Shown one piece after another: positions 190-5,853 of a DNA stretch of 64,000 bases (positions are counted from its first letter, which is position 1; the number at the start of each line of letters is the position of its first letter). The translations under genes were made by a program, and so were the position numbers. This DNA is from Acidovorax sp. KKS102 (GTDB lineage: Bacteria > Pseudomonadota > Gammaproteobacteria > Burkholderiales > Burkholderiaceae_C): the NCBI RefSeq assembly GCF_000302535.1, contig NC_018708.1:496001-560000 (forward strand). The letters run 5' to 3'. The notes beneath the pieces are model-generated. The model was not told where the DNA came from. It worked only from the letters and a program-made list of their open reading frames with translations, and made no database searches.

Positions 190-203
190 TTGACGCAGGT
201 CAA
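190..203. promoter_or_regulatory. FNR/CRP-family binding site (TTGAC-N4-GTCAA)
   Basis: The 14 bases form a perfect palindrome TTGAC-GCAG-GTCAA, one base per half-site away from the FNR/ANR consensus TTGAT-N4-ATCAA. It lies between the divergent lipoprotein gene and narX. Its centre (196.5) is 41.5 bases before position 238, the spacing of class II FNR activation, with a -10-like hexamer at 226-231. Control of the nitrate respiration operon by an FNR-type anaerobic regulator is well established in other bacteria; use of this site is inferred. Confidence 0.7.
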
Positions 204-225
204 GAACCGCACAAAACCCCTTGCC

Positions 226-231
226 TACACT
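226..231 (+). promoter_or_regulatory. probable -10 element of narX
   Basis: TACACT matches TATAAT at four of six positions, including the key first T, A and last T. It sits 23 bases after the FNR-type box and would place the transcription start at about 237-238, on the narX start codon itself. No Shine-Dalgarno sequence lies before that ATG, consistent with a leaderless message. Confidence 0.45.
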
Positions 232-236
232 GCGCC

Positions 237-2192
237 ATGCGCTCGCGGCCCACCCTTTCCACCAAGCTCCTGGCCATGGGCGCCGGATTTTTGCTGGTGG
301 CCCTGGCTTCCATCGGACTCACCTTGTGGGTGACCTGGAAGCTCGAAGGCGGCGCGGCGGCCGTCAACGAGGCCGGCCGCCTGCGCATGAACATGCTGCG
401 CATGGTGCTGGTGCTCCAGAACGAGCCGCCCGAGGCCGTGCAAGAGCGCGCGCGCCAGTTCGACGCCAGCCTGGAGTTGCTGCGCACGGGCGATCCGTCG
501 CGCCCGCTGTTTGTGCCGTGGAGCGACGAGACGCGCACCCGGTTCGACGGCATCCGCGCCCGCTGGACCGAGGCCCGCACGGGGTGGGTCAGCGCCTTGC
601 CCCCCGACCGGGCCCGGAACCTGGCCGAGGCCGATGCCTTTGTGCAGCAGGTGGACGGCTTCGTGGATGCCATCGAAATCCAGATCGCAGGCTGGACCGC
701 CGCGCTGCACCTGTTCCAGCTGTTCATGATGGCGCTGGCCATCGTGGCGGCCGTCACCTTCATGGCCGTGAGCTATTTGCTGGTGATCAACCCCGTGGCG
801 CGCCTGCAGCAGGCCCAGGCCCGGCTGCGCCAGGGCGAGCTGGGCACGCGGCTGCAAGTGGACACTGACGATGAGTTCGGCCAGCTCTCGGCCGGCTTCA
901 ACCTGATGGCGCACGCGCTGCAGGCCTCGCACGACGAGCTGGAGCACAAGGTGCGCGAAAAGACCGCCAGCATCGCCGTGCAGAACCAGCGGCTGGCCGC
1001 GCTGTACGAGGTCAGTGCGCTGGCCAGCACCGCCAGCAGCCTGGAGCTGCTGGCCCAGGGTTTTGTGCAGCAGATTCGCCGCGTGGCGGGCGCCGATGCC
1101 GCCGCCGTGCGCTGGTCCAACGAGGCGAATGAGCGCTACGTGCTGCTGGCAGGTGATGGCCTGCCTGTGGCCATGGCCGAGGGCGAGCATTGCCTGCACA
1201 CCGGCAGCTGCCTGTGCGGTCAGCCGCAGGAGCAGGCGCGCACCCGGGTCATCCCCATCACGCCATCCACCGAGGTCGCCTTGCCGCACTGCCGCGATGC
1301 AGGGTTTGAAACCATGGTCACCATCCCCGTCAAGATGCAGATGCGCATGCTGGGCGAGGTCAACCTGTTCTTCCGATCGCCCGTCGAGATGACCGACGAG
1401 CTGCGCGATCTGCTCGAAGCCATGACCCGCCACCTGGCCAGCGCCATGGAGGGCCTGCGTGCCATCGCACTGGAGCGCGAGGCGGCCGTGGCCGAGGAGC
1501 GCGGCCTGCTCGCGCGCGAGCTGCACGACTCCATCGCGCAGTCGCTGGCCTTCCTCAAGATCCAGACCCAGCTGCTGCGCGACGCCGTGGCGCGTGGCGA
1601 CGATGCCAAGCGCGACCGCAGCATCGGCGAGCTGGATGTGGGCGTGCGGGAGTGCTATTCGGATGTGCGCGAACTGCTGGTGCACTTTCGCACCCGCACC
1701 AGCGAGGAAGACATTGAATCGGCGCTGCGCGCCACCTTGTCCAAGTTCGAGCACCAGACCGGCATGGTCACTACGCTGGGCATGGTGGGCCATGGCCTGC
1801 CACTGGCGCAGGACGTGCAGATCCAGGTGCTGCACATGGTGCAGGAGGCGCTGTCGAACGTGCGCAAGCACTCGGGCGCCACGCGGGTCGATGTGCTGGT
1901 GCACCGCCACCCCCGCTGGCGCTTTGAGGTGCAGGACAACGGCACGGGTTTTGACGTGACGGCCGTGCCGCCCGATTCGCTGCACGTGGGCATGGGCATC
2001 ATGCGCGAGCGGGCCCAGCGCATTGGCGCCGTGGTCCAGGTGGAGTCCGCGCCAGGGCAGGGCACCCGGGTGTGCATCGAGCTGCCCTCGGTCGTGCCCG
2101 CCCAGACCGTGGCCGTTGCGTCTGAGGGGCCATTGGCTCAAGCTGCCTACGCTGCCCAGGCCGACATTCCCCACACCGCCAACACTCCATGA
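237..2192 (+). CDS. narX: nitrate/nitrite sensor histidine kinase NarX
   Basis: Membrane sensor kinase of 651 residues that senses periplasmic nitrate/nitrite and phosphorylates NarL. A first membrane helix lies at about residues 15-36. It is followed by the conserved P-box-like stretch around N-E-A-G-R-L-R-M, a periplasmic domain, a second helix near 165-185, a HAMP domain, a GAF-like cysteine-containing central module (residues near 320-330 hold the C-x-C pair) and a HisKA_3/HATPase_c kinase end. The phosphorylated His is in the R-E-L-H-D-S motif, and the ATP-binding N and G boxes follow near Q-D-N-G-T-G. The ATG at 237 is chosen because the sequence before it has no family character; the frame stays open upstream only by chance of high GC. 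The stop overlaps narL by four bases, so the pair is translationally coupled. Confidence 0.93.
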   Translation: MRSRPTLSTKLLAMGAGFLLVALASIGLTLWVTWKLEGGAAAVNEAGRLRMNMLRMVLVLQNEPPEAVQERARQFDASLELLRTGDPSRPLFVPWSDETRTRFDGIRARWTEARTGWVSALPPDRARNLAEADAFVQQVDGFVDAIEIQIAGWTAALHLFQLFMMALAIVAAVTFMAVSYLLVINPVARLQQAQARLRQGELGTRLQVDTDDEFGQLSAGFNLMAHALQASHDELEHKVREKTASIAVQNQRLAALYEVSALASTASSLELLAQGFVQQIRRVAGADAAAVRWSNEANERYVLLAGDGLPVAMAEGEHCLHTGSCLCGQPQEQARTRVIPITPSTEVALPHCRDAGFETMVTIPVKMQMRMLGEVNLFFRSPVEMTDELRDLLEAMTRHLASAMEGLRAIALEREAAVAEERGLLARELHDSIAQSLAFLKIQTQLLRDAVARGDDAKRDRSIGELDVGVRECYSDVRELLVHFRTRTSEEDIESALRATLSKFEHQTGMVTTLGMVGHGLPLAQDVQIQVLHMVQEALSNVRKHSGATRVDVLVHRHPRWRFEVQDNGTGFDVTAVPPDSLHVGMGIMRERAQRIGAVVQVESAPGQGTRVCIELPSVVPAQTVAVASEGPLAQAAYAAQADIPHTANTP

Positions 2193-2911
2193 CGAACCAA
2201 GCTGCCTCCGCCACCGCATCTTCTCCCCTGGTCACGCTGCTGGTGGTGGACGATCACACGCTGTTCCGGCGCGGGTTGATCGCGCTGCTGGGCCAGTATG
2301 AGGGCCTGTCCGTGGTGGGTGAGGCGGGGGATGCCGCGCAGGCCCTGCGGCTTGCGCCCCAGCTGCAGCCCCAGGTCATCCTGCTCGACAACCACCTGCC
2401 CGGCGTGATGGGCGTGGATGCGATCCAGGGGCTGCGCGAGGTGTCGCCCACCTCGCGCGTGCTCATGCTCACCGTGAGCGAGGACGCGCAGGACCTGGCG
2501 ACCGCGCTGCGCAATGGTGCCCAGGGCTACCTGCTCAAGACCATCGACGGCGAGCTGCTGGCGCAGGCCATTCACCGCGCCGCCAGGGGCGAGCCCGTGG
2601 TCAGCCCTGAGCTGATGGGCAAGCTCGTGGCGGCGTTCCAGTCGCAGGGCGCGCCCGAGGCGCCCCCCGCGCCGATGCCACCTGCCGACGCAGCGGCGGC
2701 CGCCCCCAACGGTTTCACCCCCCTGTCGCCGCGCGAGGAAGACGTGCTGCGCGAGATCGCCCGGGGTGCGAGCAACAAGGAGATCGCCCGCACGCTCGAC
2801 ATCGCCGAGACCACGGTGAAGATCCACGTGCAGCACATCCTGCGCAAGCTGGGTCTCAGCTCGCGCGTGCAGGCAGCGGTGTACGCCTCGGACCGGCAGC
2901 GCGCCGAATAG
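2189..2911 (+). CDS. narL: nitrate/nitrite response regulator NarL
   Basis: Response regulator of 240 residues partnering NarX. The receiver domain (about 15-135) shows the acidic pair D21/D22, the phospho-acceptor D67 in L-L-D-N-H-L-P and the conserved K117. A Pro/Ala linker (about 155-172) leads to a LuxR-type helix-turn-helix (about 177-235; L-S-P-R-E-x-x-V-L, then N-K-E-I-A and the recognition helix T-V-K-I-H). The ATG overlaps the narX stop in an ATGA. Phosphorylated NarL normally activates narK and narG promoters at TACYYMT heptamers; the 219 bases downstream, before narK1, are where such sites would be expected, but only an imperfect TACTCCC at 3033 was seen. Confidence 0.93.
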   Translation: MTNQAASATASSPLVTLLVVDDHTLFRRGLIALLGQYEGLSVVGEAGDAAQALRLAPQLQPQVILLDNHLPGVMGVDAIQGLREVSPTSRVLMLTVSEDAQDLATALRNGAQGYLLKTIDGELLAQAIHRAARGEPVVSPELMGKLVAAFQSQGAPEAPPAPMPPADAAAAAPNGFTPLSPREEDVLREIARGASNKEIARTLDIAETTVKIHVQHILRKLGLSSRVQAAVYASDRQRAE

Positions 2912-3097
2912 CACACGCATAGACGTCTGCACGCCCGCACACGCGGCGTGCATCGCGTGCTTGGCGGGCAGGGGCAGCACCGTCCAACGCGTGCGCCATA
3001 GTTCTTTCGGACGATGCCGCACCCCCAGTGACTACTCCCTCTGCCGCGCCGCACACCCTCTAGCGAAGGATGTGCAAAAGCCTCTGCACACGCGACC

Positions 3098-3124
3098 ATT
3101 CCTCTCATGCAAAAAGAGAGGAAT
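3098..3124 (+). promoter_or_regulatory. hairpin enclosing the narK1 ribosome binding site
   Basis: A perfect 9-base inverted repeat: ATTCCTCTC (3098-3106) and GAGAGGAAT (3116-3124) with a 9-base loop ATGCAAAAA. The right arm contains the only Shine-Dalgarno-like run (GAGAGGAA, about 7 bases before the narK1 ATG at 3131). In the mRNA the ribosome binding site would therefore be paired. This suggests translational control of narK1, or coupling to RNA structure or temperature. The role is inferred from sequence alone. Confidence 0.5.
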
Positions 3125-3130
3125 CGCGCA

Positions 3131-4423
3131 ATGGCCAACGCAACTTTGCCGCCGGGCGACAGCCCGCAGCGCACCCGTCAGGCGTGGTCGGTGCTCATCG
3201 TCAGCACCTTCGCCTTCACCGTCTGCTTCATGGTCTGGATGATGTTTGGCGTCATCGGCATCCCCATCAAGAAGATGCTGAACCTGAACTCCACGCAGTT
3301 CGGGCTGCTGATGTCCATGCCCGTGCTCACGGGCTCACTGGTGCGGGTGCCCCTGGGTATCTGGACCGACAAGTTCGGTGGCCGCATCGTGATGGCGGCC
3401 GTCATGGCCACCACCGTGCCTGCTATCTGGCTCATGAGCTATGCCACGGAGTACTGGCACTTCCTGACGATCGGCCTGTTTGTGGGCTTGGCGGGGGGCT
3501 CGTTCTCAGTGGGTACGCCTTATGTGGCGCGCTGGTTCCCCAAGCATCGCCAGGGCACGGCCATGGGTGTGTATGGTGCGGGTAACTCGGGTGCAGCCGT
3601 GAACAAGTTCGTGGCGCCCGTGATCCTGGTGGCCTTTGGCTGGACCATGGTGCCGCAGGTGTATGCGGCCATCATGCTCGGCACGCTGGTGCTGTTCTGG
3701 CTGTTCAGCTACAGCGACCCGGCCCACCTGGTGCCCAGCAACGTCAAGTTCACCGACCAGCTCAAGGCGCTCAAGGACCCCAAAGTGCTCAAGTACTGCC
3801 AGTACTACAGCATTGTGTTTGGCGGCTACGTGGCGCTGTCGCTGTGGATGGTGCAGTACTACGTGGGCGAATACGGCCTGGACATCCGCGTGGCCGCGCT
3901 GCTGGCCGCCTGCTTCTCGCTGCCCGGTGGCGTGCTGCGCGCCATTGGCGGCATTTTGAGTGACAAGTACGGCGCCCACAGCGTGACCTGGTGGGTGATG
4001 TGGGTGAGCTGGATCTGCCTGTTCCTGCTGAGCTACCCGCAGACCGACTTCACAATCCTCACCGTCAACGGACCGCAGACCTTCCACATCGGCCTGAACG
4101 TGTACATGTTCACTGGCCTCATGTTCCTGCTGGGCATCTGCTGGGCCTTCGGCAAGGCCAGTGTCTTCAAGTACATCAGCGACGACTACCCCCACAACAT
4201 CGGCGCCATCAGCGGCATCGTGGGTCTGGCCGGCGGCATGGGCGGCTTCGTCCTGCCCATCCTGTTCGGCGCGCTGATGGACCTCACCGGCATCCGTTCC
4301 AGCGCTTTCATGCTGATGTATGGCGTGGTGTGGGTTTCGCTCATCTGGATGTACTTCACCGAAGTGCGCAACACCCGTCTCATGGGCTCGCAAAGCGCCG
4401 TCGCACAGACGGCCGCCCGCTGA
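3131..4423 (+). CDS. narK1: NarK1-type nitrate transporter (MFS)
   Basis: Twelve-helix MFS protein of 430 residues of the nitrate/nitrite porter family, inner membrane. The nitrate signature glycine-rich helices are visible: G-L-A-G-G-S-F-S-V-G-T-P-Y-V in the first half and G-I-V-G-L-A-G-G-M-G-G-F-V-L-P in the second. The short, loop-poor form resembles NarK1 (nitrate/proton symport) of Paracoccus and Pseudomonas. An in-frame ATG at 3107 exists, but it lies in a hairpin loop without a ribosome binding site; the ATG at 3131 has GAGAGGAA before it and is preferred. It heads the narK1K2GHJI run; narK2 follows after 20 bases. Confidence 0.9.
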   Translation: MANATLPPGDSPQRTRQAWSVLIVSTFAFTVCFMVWMMFGVIGIPIKKMLNLNSTQFGLLMSMPVLTGSLVRVPLGIWTDKFGGRIVMAAVMATTVPAIWLMSYATEYWHFLTIGLFVGLAGGSFSVGTPYVARWFPKHRQGTAMGVYGAGNSGAAVNKFVAPVILVAFGWTMVPQVYAAIMLGTLVLFWLFSYSDPAHLVPSNVKFTDQLKALKDPKVLKYCQYYSIVFGGYVALSLWMVQYYVGEYGLDIRVAALLAACFSLPGGVLRAIGGILSDKYGAHSVTWWVMWVSWICLFLLSYPQTDFTILTVNGPQTFHIGLNVYMFTGLMFLLGICWAFGKASVFKYISDDYPHNIGAISGIVGLAGGMGGFVLPILFGALMDLTGIRSSAFMLMYGVVWVSLIWMYFTEVRNTRLMGSQSAVAQTAAR

Positions 4424-4443
4424 TTTTTCCAAGGACTCTCACC

Positions 4444-5853
4444 ATGTCTGCCATCACCACCAGCGGGCGCCAGGGGCGTCTTCTCACCCTCTGGGCCCCG
4501 GAGGACAAATCGTTCTGGGAGCGCGAAGGCGAAGCCATTGCCAAGCTCAACCTCTGGATCTCGGTGCCCGCGCTGTTCCTGGCCTTTGCCATCTGGCAGG
4601 TCTGGAGCGTGGTTGCCGTGAGCCTGCCCGGCCTCGGCTTCAAGTACTCGACCAACCAGCTGTTCTGGCTGGCGGCCGCGCCCGCACTCTCGGGCGCCAC
4701 GCTGCGCATCTTCTATTCGTTCATGGTGCCGCTGGTCGGTGGCCGCCGCTGGACGGCGATCTCCACCGCCTCGCTGCTGATTCCGGCGCTGGGCATCGGC
4801 TTTGCGGTGCAGGACAACACTACAGCCTACCCCACCATGCTCATCCTGGCGCTGCTGTGTGGCCTGGGTGGTGGCAACTTCAGCTCCAGCATGGCCAACA
4901 TCAGCTTCTTCTTTCCGAAGGAGCGCAAGGGGTCGGCGCTGGGTGTGAACGCGGGCCTGGGCAACCTGGGCGTGTCGGTGGTGCAGTTCCTGAGCCCTCT
5001 GGTCGTCACGGCCGGCATCTTTGGAGTTTTTGGGGGTGATGCCCAGACCATCGTCAAGAACGGCCAGACCGCACAGGTCTGGACGCAGAACGCCGCTTTC
5101 ATCTGGGTGCCATGGATTGCGCTGACCGCGCTGGCGGCTTGGTTTGGCATGAACGATATTGCCGACGCGCGCGCTTCGTTCGCTGCGCAGGCCGCCATTT
5201 TCAAGCGCAAGCACAACTGGCTGATGTGTGTGCTGTACCTCGGCACCTTCGGCTCGTTCATCGGCTACGCCGCAGGCTTTCCGCTGCTCATCAAGAGCCA
5301 GTTTCCCAGCATCAACCCCCTGGCCTACGCCTGGCTGGGGCCGCTGGTGGGTGCAGTGGTGCGGCCCTTTGGGGGCTGGCTGGCCGACAAGCTCGGCGGT
5401 GCTCGCGTCACGCTGTGGAACTTCATCGTGATGGCCATCGCCGTGGTCGGTGTGACGGTGTTCCTGCCATCGGGCGGTAACGAGGGCCAGTTCGCCGGCT
5501 TCTTTGTGTGCTTCCTGGTGCTTTTCCTCACCACCGGCATCGGCAACGGCTCCACCTTCCGCATGATCCCCGTGATCTTCCTGACCGAAGCCATGCGCGG
5601 CGTGGACCCCCTCAACACGGCCGCTGTGGCCCAGGCCAACAAGGAAGGCAACACCCTGGGTGCCGCCACGCTGGGTTTCACCGCTGCCATGGCGGCCTAC
5701 GGCGGGTTCTTTATTCCAAAGAGCTACGGCAGCTCCATCGCGCTGACCGGCAGCCCCCACGCCGCGCTGTGGACGTTCTTCGCCTTCTACCTCGTATGCA
5801 TCGTGATCACCTGGTGGCACTACGCGCGCAAGAACGCCGCCATGCCTTGCTGA
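4444..5853 (+). CDS. narK2: NarK2-type nitrate/nitrite antiporter (MFS)
   Basis: MFS porter of 469 residues, close in style to E. coli NarK. It has a soluble N-terminal stretch with W-A-P-E-D-K-x-F-W-E, then twelve predicted helices. The nitrate signatures are G-L-G-G-G-N-F-S-S-S-M-A-N-I-S-F-F-F-P in the first half and a second Gly-rich motif around G-N-T-L-G-A-A-T-L-G. Such proteins exchange nitrate for nitrite, supplying NarG and removing its toxic product. Paracoccus carries the same two proteins as a single NarK1-NarK2 fusion; here they are separate genes 20 bases apart. A run AAGGA precedes the ATG. Confidence 0.92.
   Translation: MSAITTSGRQGRLLTLWAPEDKSFWEREGEAIAKLNLWISVPALFLAFAIWQVWSVVAVSLPGLGFKYSTNQLFWLAAAPALSGATLRIFYSFMVPLVGGRRWTAISTASLLIPALGIGFAVQDNTTAYPTMLILALLCGLGGGNFSSSMANISFFFPKERKGSALGVNAGLGNLGVSVVQFLSPLVVTAGIFGVFGGDAQTIVKNGQTAQVWTQNAAFIWVPWIALTALAAWFGMNDIADARASFAAQAAIFKRKHNWLMCVLYLGTFGSFIGYAAGFPLLIKSQFPSINPLAYAWLGPLVGAVVRPFGGWLADKLGGARVTLWNFIVMAIAVVGVTVFLPSGGNEGQFAGFFVCFLVLFLTTGIGNGSTFRMIPVIFLTEAMRGVDPLNTAAVAQANKEGNTLGAATLGFTAAMAAYGGFFIPKSYGSSIALTGSPHAALWTFFAFYLVCIVITWWHYARKNAAMPC

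Follow-up and report, generated by a model that had tools for sequence, protein, structure and literature searches.

A hairpin over the narK1 ribosome site of Acidovorax and a possible translation lock on RNA started upstream

Introduction

In the transposase genes of IS10 and IS50, the ribosome site is covered by a fold in read-through RNA and is left uncovered in RNA made from the internal promoter, and at pyrC a shift of the transcription start by a few nucleotides at one promoter decides whether a hairpin covers the Shine–Dalgarno sequence. In RNA thermometers and translational riboswitches the Shine–Dalgarno sequence is likewise held in a stem. For T4 gene e, the relevant passages of the published account describe long early RNAs that hide the ribosome site and late promoters within the region encoding the 5′ strand, the short RNAs of which escape (PMC3014915). 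For I-TevI, the corresponding passages describe a helix over the ribosome site in the long RNAs and a separate promoter of the gene in the 5′ strand region (PMC2988022).

The narK1 locus of Acidovorax sp. KKS102 resembles T4 gene e, soc and I-TevI in that its predicted promoter falls within the sequence coding for the 5′ strand and its long RNA is predicted to be closed. Two traits of gene e, a ribosome site that is paired in the long RNA and an own RNA that lacks the 5′ strand, are found at narK1 by prediction, and a third trait of such locks, pairing that is kept in relatives despite sequence change, is found in tests of own against foreign segments. On paper the narK1 device would work like gene e, the T4 system being defined by the difference in translation between long and short RNAs. 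Unlike gene e, narK1 belongs to a chromosomal respiratory operon, has a predicted sigma-70-type promoter behind narXL, and carries an arm sequence that is not conserved. The protection of IS10 and IS50 from outside transcription follows the same logic as the lock proposed for narK1, although narK1 is not a mobile element. The 5′ end would decide about the hairpin at both pyrC and narK1, but the narK1 arm lies upstream of +1. The Shine–Dalgarno sequence of narK1 lies in a stem as in thermometers and riboswitches, but narK1 has no Rfam match and its predicted own mRNA lacks one arm. No description of such a lock at narK was found in searches of open-licence papers, and the sections considered of a review on nitrate respiration (PMC8139620) make no mention of such a narK hairpin.

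Results

A hairpin covers the ribosome site of narK1

The analysis is based on a window of 64,000 nucleotides of the Acidovorax sp. KKS102 genome (NC_018708.1, positions 496,001 to 560,000), to which all coordinates refer (table 1). A NarX/NarQ-like kinase and a NarL-like regulator are encoded 5′ of narK1 on the same strand, and a second NarK-type gene followed by narG lies downstream. The best named matches of the narK1 protein belong to Acidovorax (the first listed is A. delafieldii DSM 64, 98% protein identity), and the protein was matched in 119 out of 148 related genomes.

Table 1. Features of the narXL–narK1 region, in coordinates of the window
Feature	Position	Strand	Remark
narXL FNR-type box (190–203) and −10 box TACACT (226–231)	190–231	+	
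narL-like response regulator gene	2189–2911	+	co-directional with narK1; likely source of read-through
GAAGGAT (G..GGAT)	3065–3071	+	conserved; adjoins the −35 element; probable activator contact
−35-like element TGTGCA	3071–3076	+	spaced 17 bp from the −10 box; conserved positions
Outer left arm CGCGA	3091–3095	+	MFE structure; pairs with 3124–3128 in read-through RNA
−10 box GACCAT	3094–3099	+	A-11 and T-7 invariant in relatives
Left arm ATTCCTCTC	3098–3106	+	inverted repeat; shared with the last part of the −10 box and with the −10/+1 spacer
Loop, 9 nt	3107–3115	+	contains the predicted narK1 start near A3107
Right arm GAGAGGAAT	3116–3124	+	contains Shine–Dalgarno GAGAGG
Outer right arm TCGCG	3124–3128	+	MFE structure
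narK1	3131–4423	+	NarK-type MFS transporter; ATG at 3131

The original prediction of a perfect 9-bp hairpin at the narK1 Shine–Dalgarno sequence was borne out: ATTCCTCTC and GAGAGGAAT are fully complementary across a 9-nt loop, and the GAGAGG lies 9 nt before the ATG. RNA from 3090 to 3160 folds with −24.9 kcal/mol (z = −2.57), which was equalled or bettered by 4 out of 200 dinucleotide shuffles. The predicted helix is longer than first noted, as the outer arms also pair across a 3-nt bulge and bring the total to 13 pairs. Control genes were drawn from the same genome (400 kb sampled, 228 ORFs kept, 55 of them with a good Shine–Dalgarno sequence), and a perfect stem over the ribosome site of at least 9 bp was present in 0 out of 55 and one of at least 7 bp in 1 out of 55. 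An Rfam search of positions 2400–4500 returned no family at E ≤ 1.

The left arm overlaps a predicted, conserved promoter

Comparison of leaders predicts a sigma-70-type promoter that sits on the left arm, with +1 near A3107 in the loop. The left arm shares sequence with the −10 box and with the spacer between it and +1, and transcripts of this promoter are therefore expected to begin within the hairpin. The predicted +1 lies 7–8 nt past the −10 box, and CA is found within −2 to +2 in 109 out of 127 leaders of related narK1 genes. All but one of these 127 anchored leaders (126) have GGAT, GAAT or GTAT at a distance of exactly 26 nt from the hexamer, on its 5′ side, in a search that favoured this spacing and demanded an A and a T as the second and sixth letters of the hexamer. 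When the anchoring was repeated on the single motif G..GGAT alone, A-11 and T-7 were present in every leader (114/114), and anchoring on G..GGAT only at fresh loci gave the same result (70/70). The leaders also share a T-G-N-N-C-A element 17 bp before the hexamer. A generic sigma-70 scan of positions 2850–3200 reported no promoter, since both GACCAT and TGTGCA deviate strongly from consensus, and in this the narK1 promoter would seem to resemble activated promoters. No FNR box was seen at the narK1 promoter.

The G..GGAT motif beside the −35 element is conserved throughout the family, and NarL as its binder would be a guess from position; a by-eye comparison with the NarL heptamer gave no good fit. 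The predicted narK1 RNA (3107–3131) would open with an AUG in frame with the start codon at 3131 (MQKERNRA before M), a feature that is not kept in relatives.

The left segment matches its own ribosome site across the family

If the left segment were purely promoter sequence, its match to its own ribosome site should be no better than to foreign ones. Homologue searches yielded a total of 139 unique leaders, of which 127 were anchored (12 were not) and reduced to 61 representatives. The hypothesis was formed from a by-eye reading of these first-set leaders, and an independent set therefore provides the fair test. This second set started from 100 loci (4 without a start call, 24 without the exact motif, 2 with two motifs, and 70 anchored), and 36 leaders were kept after 34 of the 70 had been dropped as at least 80% alike to others.

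Among the 61 representatives, segments starting 12 nt upstream of the −10 box scored −13.8 kcal/mol with their own ribosome site versus −10.4 kcal/mol when permuted (z = −10.2), and segments starting at the end of the hexamer gave z = −7.8; segments from the predicted +1 carried no complementarity signal (z = −0.2 and +1.4). With 8-nt windows, the signal peaked at about −10 to +4 and was gone from +1. Sliding windows placed the left side of the pairing in the −10 box and the spacer to about +1, and the right side in the Shine–Dalgarno sequence and the start codon. In the first sliding-window test, left windows with a start at 0 or beyond run into the right window in 6 to 45 leaders, and reliance was therefore placed on the non-overlapping windows of that test and on the 8-nt windows. 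Reversed left segments gave no signal at the peak windows, with z = −3.0 in one neighbouring window (start −9), and a score restricted to Watson–Crick pairs gave z = 8.7 in the first set.

In the independent 36 leaders, the own pairing was reached in 0 out of 10000 permutations for the duplex, the Watson–Crick and both MFE scores, and segments from +1 again gave no signal (z = −0.14); the reversed-left duplex control was not clean in this set (z = −2.36). Combining the two sets (97 leaders) gave z = 10.2, with 8.1 when permuting within hexamer classes, 8.0 within bins of like G+C, and 0.89 for reversed left segments. The signal was absent at the starts of narK2 (22 representatives), narG (28) and narL (13), and at 20 genes behind FNR-type promoters.

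The stems that underlie the signal can be wholly different in their letters, as in GGTGCTC/GAGCACC (L053), CTCCTCA/TGAGGAG (L048), GTGAGCT/AGCTCAC (L067), the 9-bp CAGTGCTCC/GGAGCACTG (L110) and the stem of the window. A lock is missing from several leaders (L091, L120, L125, L134, L230 and L236). Mismatches are divided between G-U and A-C (8 vs 9), which does not favour RNA over DNA, and the gain is modestly larger for the sense than for the antisense strand (3.2 vs 2.6 kcal/mol). Judged from these comparisons of leaders, pairing of the −10/+1 segment with the ribosome site appears to be under selection in relatives.

The computed cost of opening the ribosome site points in the same direction as regards own and foreign segments. 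In the window it is 19.3 kcal/mol in the long RNA versus 4.3 kcal/mol in RNA from +1, and the means over the 61 representatives are 10.9 and 5.1 kcal/mol. The left segment raises the cost by 5.7 kcal/mol when own versus 2.9 kcal/mol when foreign. In the 55 control genes the mean rise was 1.5 kcal/mol and a rise of 15 kcal/mol was reached by none. Across both sets, 44 out of 96 leaders have a value within the highest tenth of those obtained with foreign left segments.

The stem shifts register between clades

A column-by-column count was made on 44 leaders (43 distinct) of proteins with at least 88% identity. The AGAGG motif is nearly invariant in these leaders and 63.8% of the 384 cells of the 9-bp stem are paired. 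Two pairs display two-sided changes, of which one (11 cells) depends on a single clade and perhaps on how the leaders were aligned, and the other (2 cells) comes from a pair of sister sequences. Compensatory changes in the arms, which the original prediction proposed to look for in related genomes, are absent from the 17 closest leaders, hand-picked from the 44 (85.6% paired, 0 two-sided changes), whereas pairing in the own-versus-foreign comparison is kept family-wide. Taken alone, the column-wise counts would argue against a conserved stem and lend poor support to a conserved mRNA stem, but the stem shifts register between clades, to which a column-wise count is blind. Homologues in which the pairing is destroyed and the ribosome site is the same, named beforehand as evidence against the proposed control, do occur in part: the L003-type and L030-type clades have lost the ATTCCTCTC-type stem and retain AGAGG. 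Some of these pair the start codon instead, as in L009, which lacks the ATTCCTCTC stem and in which CCATTGCGC pairs with GCGCAATGG over the start codon.

Possible transcription from upstream

Of the 98 leaders with a narL match, 97 have narL upstream of narK1 and in the same orientation (29 out of 127 leaders were without a match). In the narL–narK1 gap of the window, two scans found no clear same-strand intrinsic terminator and a laxer scan lists a weak candidate. Terminator strength in this gap and strength of the lock are not correlated, either in 95 leaders (rho = −0.08, p = 0.47) or in 41 representatives (rho = −0.15, p = 0.34), and a trade-off between the two, suggested by an inverse relation seen by eye in a few clades, was rejected after this systematic test. 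Leaders with a co-directional narL have stronger locks in the first set (p = 0.025, 40 vs 20); the difference was not replicated in the new set (p = 0.44, 22 vs 14) and is weak when both are pooled (p = 0.043). The upstream gene is seemingly divergent in some lineages with strong stems (L110 and L108), and strong stems beside divergent genes could be due to leakage of transcription that began at other sites upstream.

An AGTTCTT-like motif is kept upstream of narK1 (positions 2997–3010 in the window, CATAGTTCTTTCGG). Many relatives use it as the 3′ arm and T-run of an apparent narL terminator, a role that is not clear in the window.

Discussion

The hairpin, the conserved promoter geometry and the species-specific complementarity, which stops at about +1 and is missing from control starts, were all obtained by computation, and several explanations can be weighed against them. 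The original prediction placed both arms on the native narK1 mRNA, as a structural switch opened by temperature, a ligand or translation, which would move the real start further upstream. The strength of the stem and its position over the Shine–Dalgarno sequence would suit such a switch, a second upstream start is possible, and the promoter is far from consensus; nevertheless the invariant −10 positions place +1 at the loop, segments from there carry no complementarity signal, no Rfam family was matched and the stem is lost in some clades. This switch is unlikely, although it comes nearest to being credible among the alternatives. Of the original proposal, the stem over the ribosome site stands, together with pairing that appears selected in relatives, but a lock on the narK1 mRNA itself is not supported: the left arm lies upstream of the predicted +1, so the own RNA would lack it. 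A transcript starting inside the hairpin, which had been named as contrary evidence, is what the predicted +1 near A3107 indicates, and a narK1 mRNA that is locked and then freed by heat or ligand is unlikely. Barely less improbable than the switch is selection on the DNA itself, with an inverted repeat from the −10/+1 region to the start codon acting as an operator or a DNA structure and not through RNA pairing. The repeat overlaps the promoter, its mismatches are not RNA-like and the antisense gain is nearly equal; against this, the sense gain is the larger one, the right arm is always on the Shine–Dalgarno sequence or the start codon, and arm letters that are wholly different between clades are unlike the site of a conserved binding protein.

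A variant with the start site at its centre is switching within one promoter, as in pyrC, where a start a few nucleotides upstream would include part of the arm and be silent. The arm does extend to between +1 and +4 in several lineages, and a window at offset 10 still gives z = −3.3, but in the window of KKS102 and at the signal peak all of the arm precedes +1, at distances of up to 9 nt, and this variant is given somewhat less weight than selection on the DNA. A fortuitous match in this genome, or one due to common base composition, is very improbable: the absence of two-sided changes in the 17 closest leaders and the reversed-left control of the new set would be in keeping with it, but the signal was replicated on independent leaders with 0 out of 10000 permutations, it holds when permuting within like G+C, and such a stem was found in none of the 55 control genes.

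The explanation to which we give a slightly better than even chance is a translation lock at narK1 that depends on the transcription start site. A conserved pairing whose bases are in part missing from the predicted native RNA points to RNA begun upstream. We infer the start site, read-through, repression of translation, an activator and a physiological purpose. RNA entering narK1 from upstream, in Acidovorax sp. KKS102 most likely by read-through from narXL, would carry positions 3091–3106 and fold onto the Shine–Dalgarno region, and no NarK1 would be made. RNA from the narK1 promoter, which is presumably nitrate/NarL-responsive, would start near 3107 without the left segment and leave the ribosome site open. 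Lack of oxygen alone would thus yield no NarK1 until the narK1 promoter fires; the lock would stop the oxygen signal alone because narXL has an FNR-type promoter and none was seen at narK1. Untranslated narK1 RNA might also end early via Rho, which would silence the whole operon. The purpose is put forward tentatively, because terminator strength is uncorrelated with the lock and the effect of orientation is weak and unreplicated.

The broader proposal, that in Acidovorax and the Comamonadaceae the spacer of a nitrate-respiration promoter was selected to pair with the ribosome site, locking read-through RNA such that the oxygen signal cannot bypass nitrate, is held with a little less than even confidence. 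If true, a promoter spacer would be under selection for its RNA effect in transcripts coming from elsewhere, a respiratory operon would be governed by a simple RNA-level AND gate, and a lock on a chromosomal metabolic operon would be kept by covariation without sequence conservation. The own-versus-foreign test of complementarity could in that case find such locks genome-wide without any sequence motif.

At the upstream end of the locus, the ATG of narX lies at position 237 and the narX mRNA is predicted to be leaderless. FNR-type boxes with TACACT at equal spacing are found in many Acidovorax genomes, several of them near nar loci.
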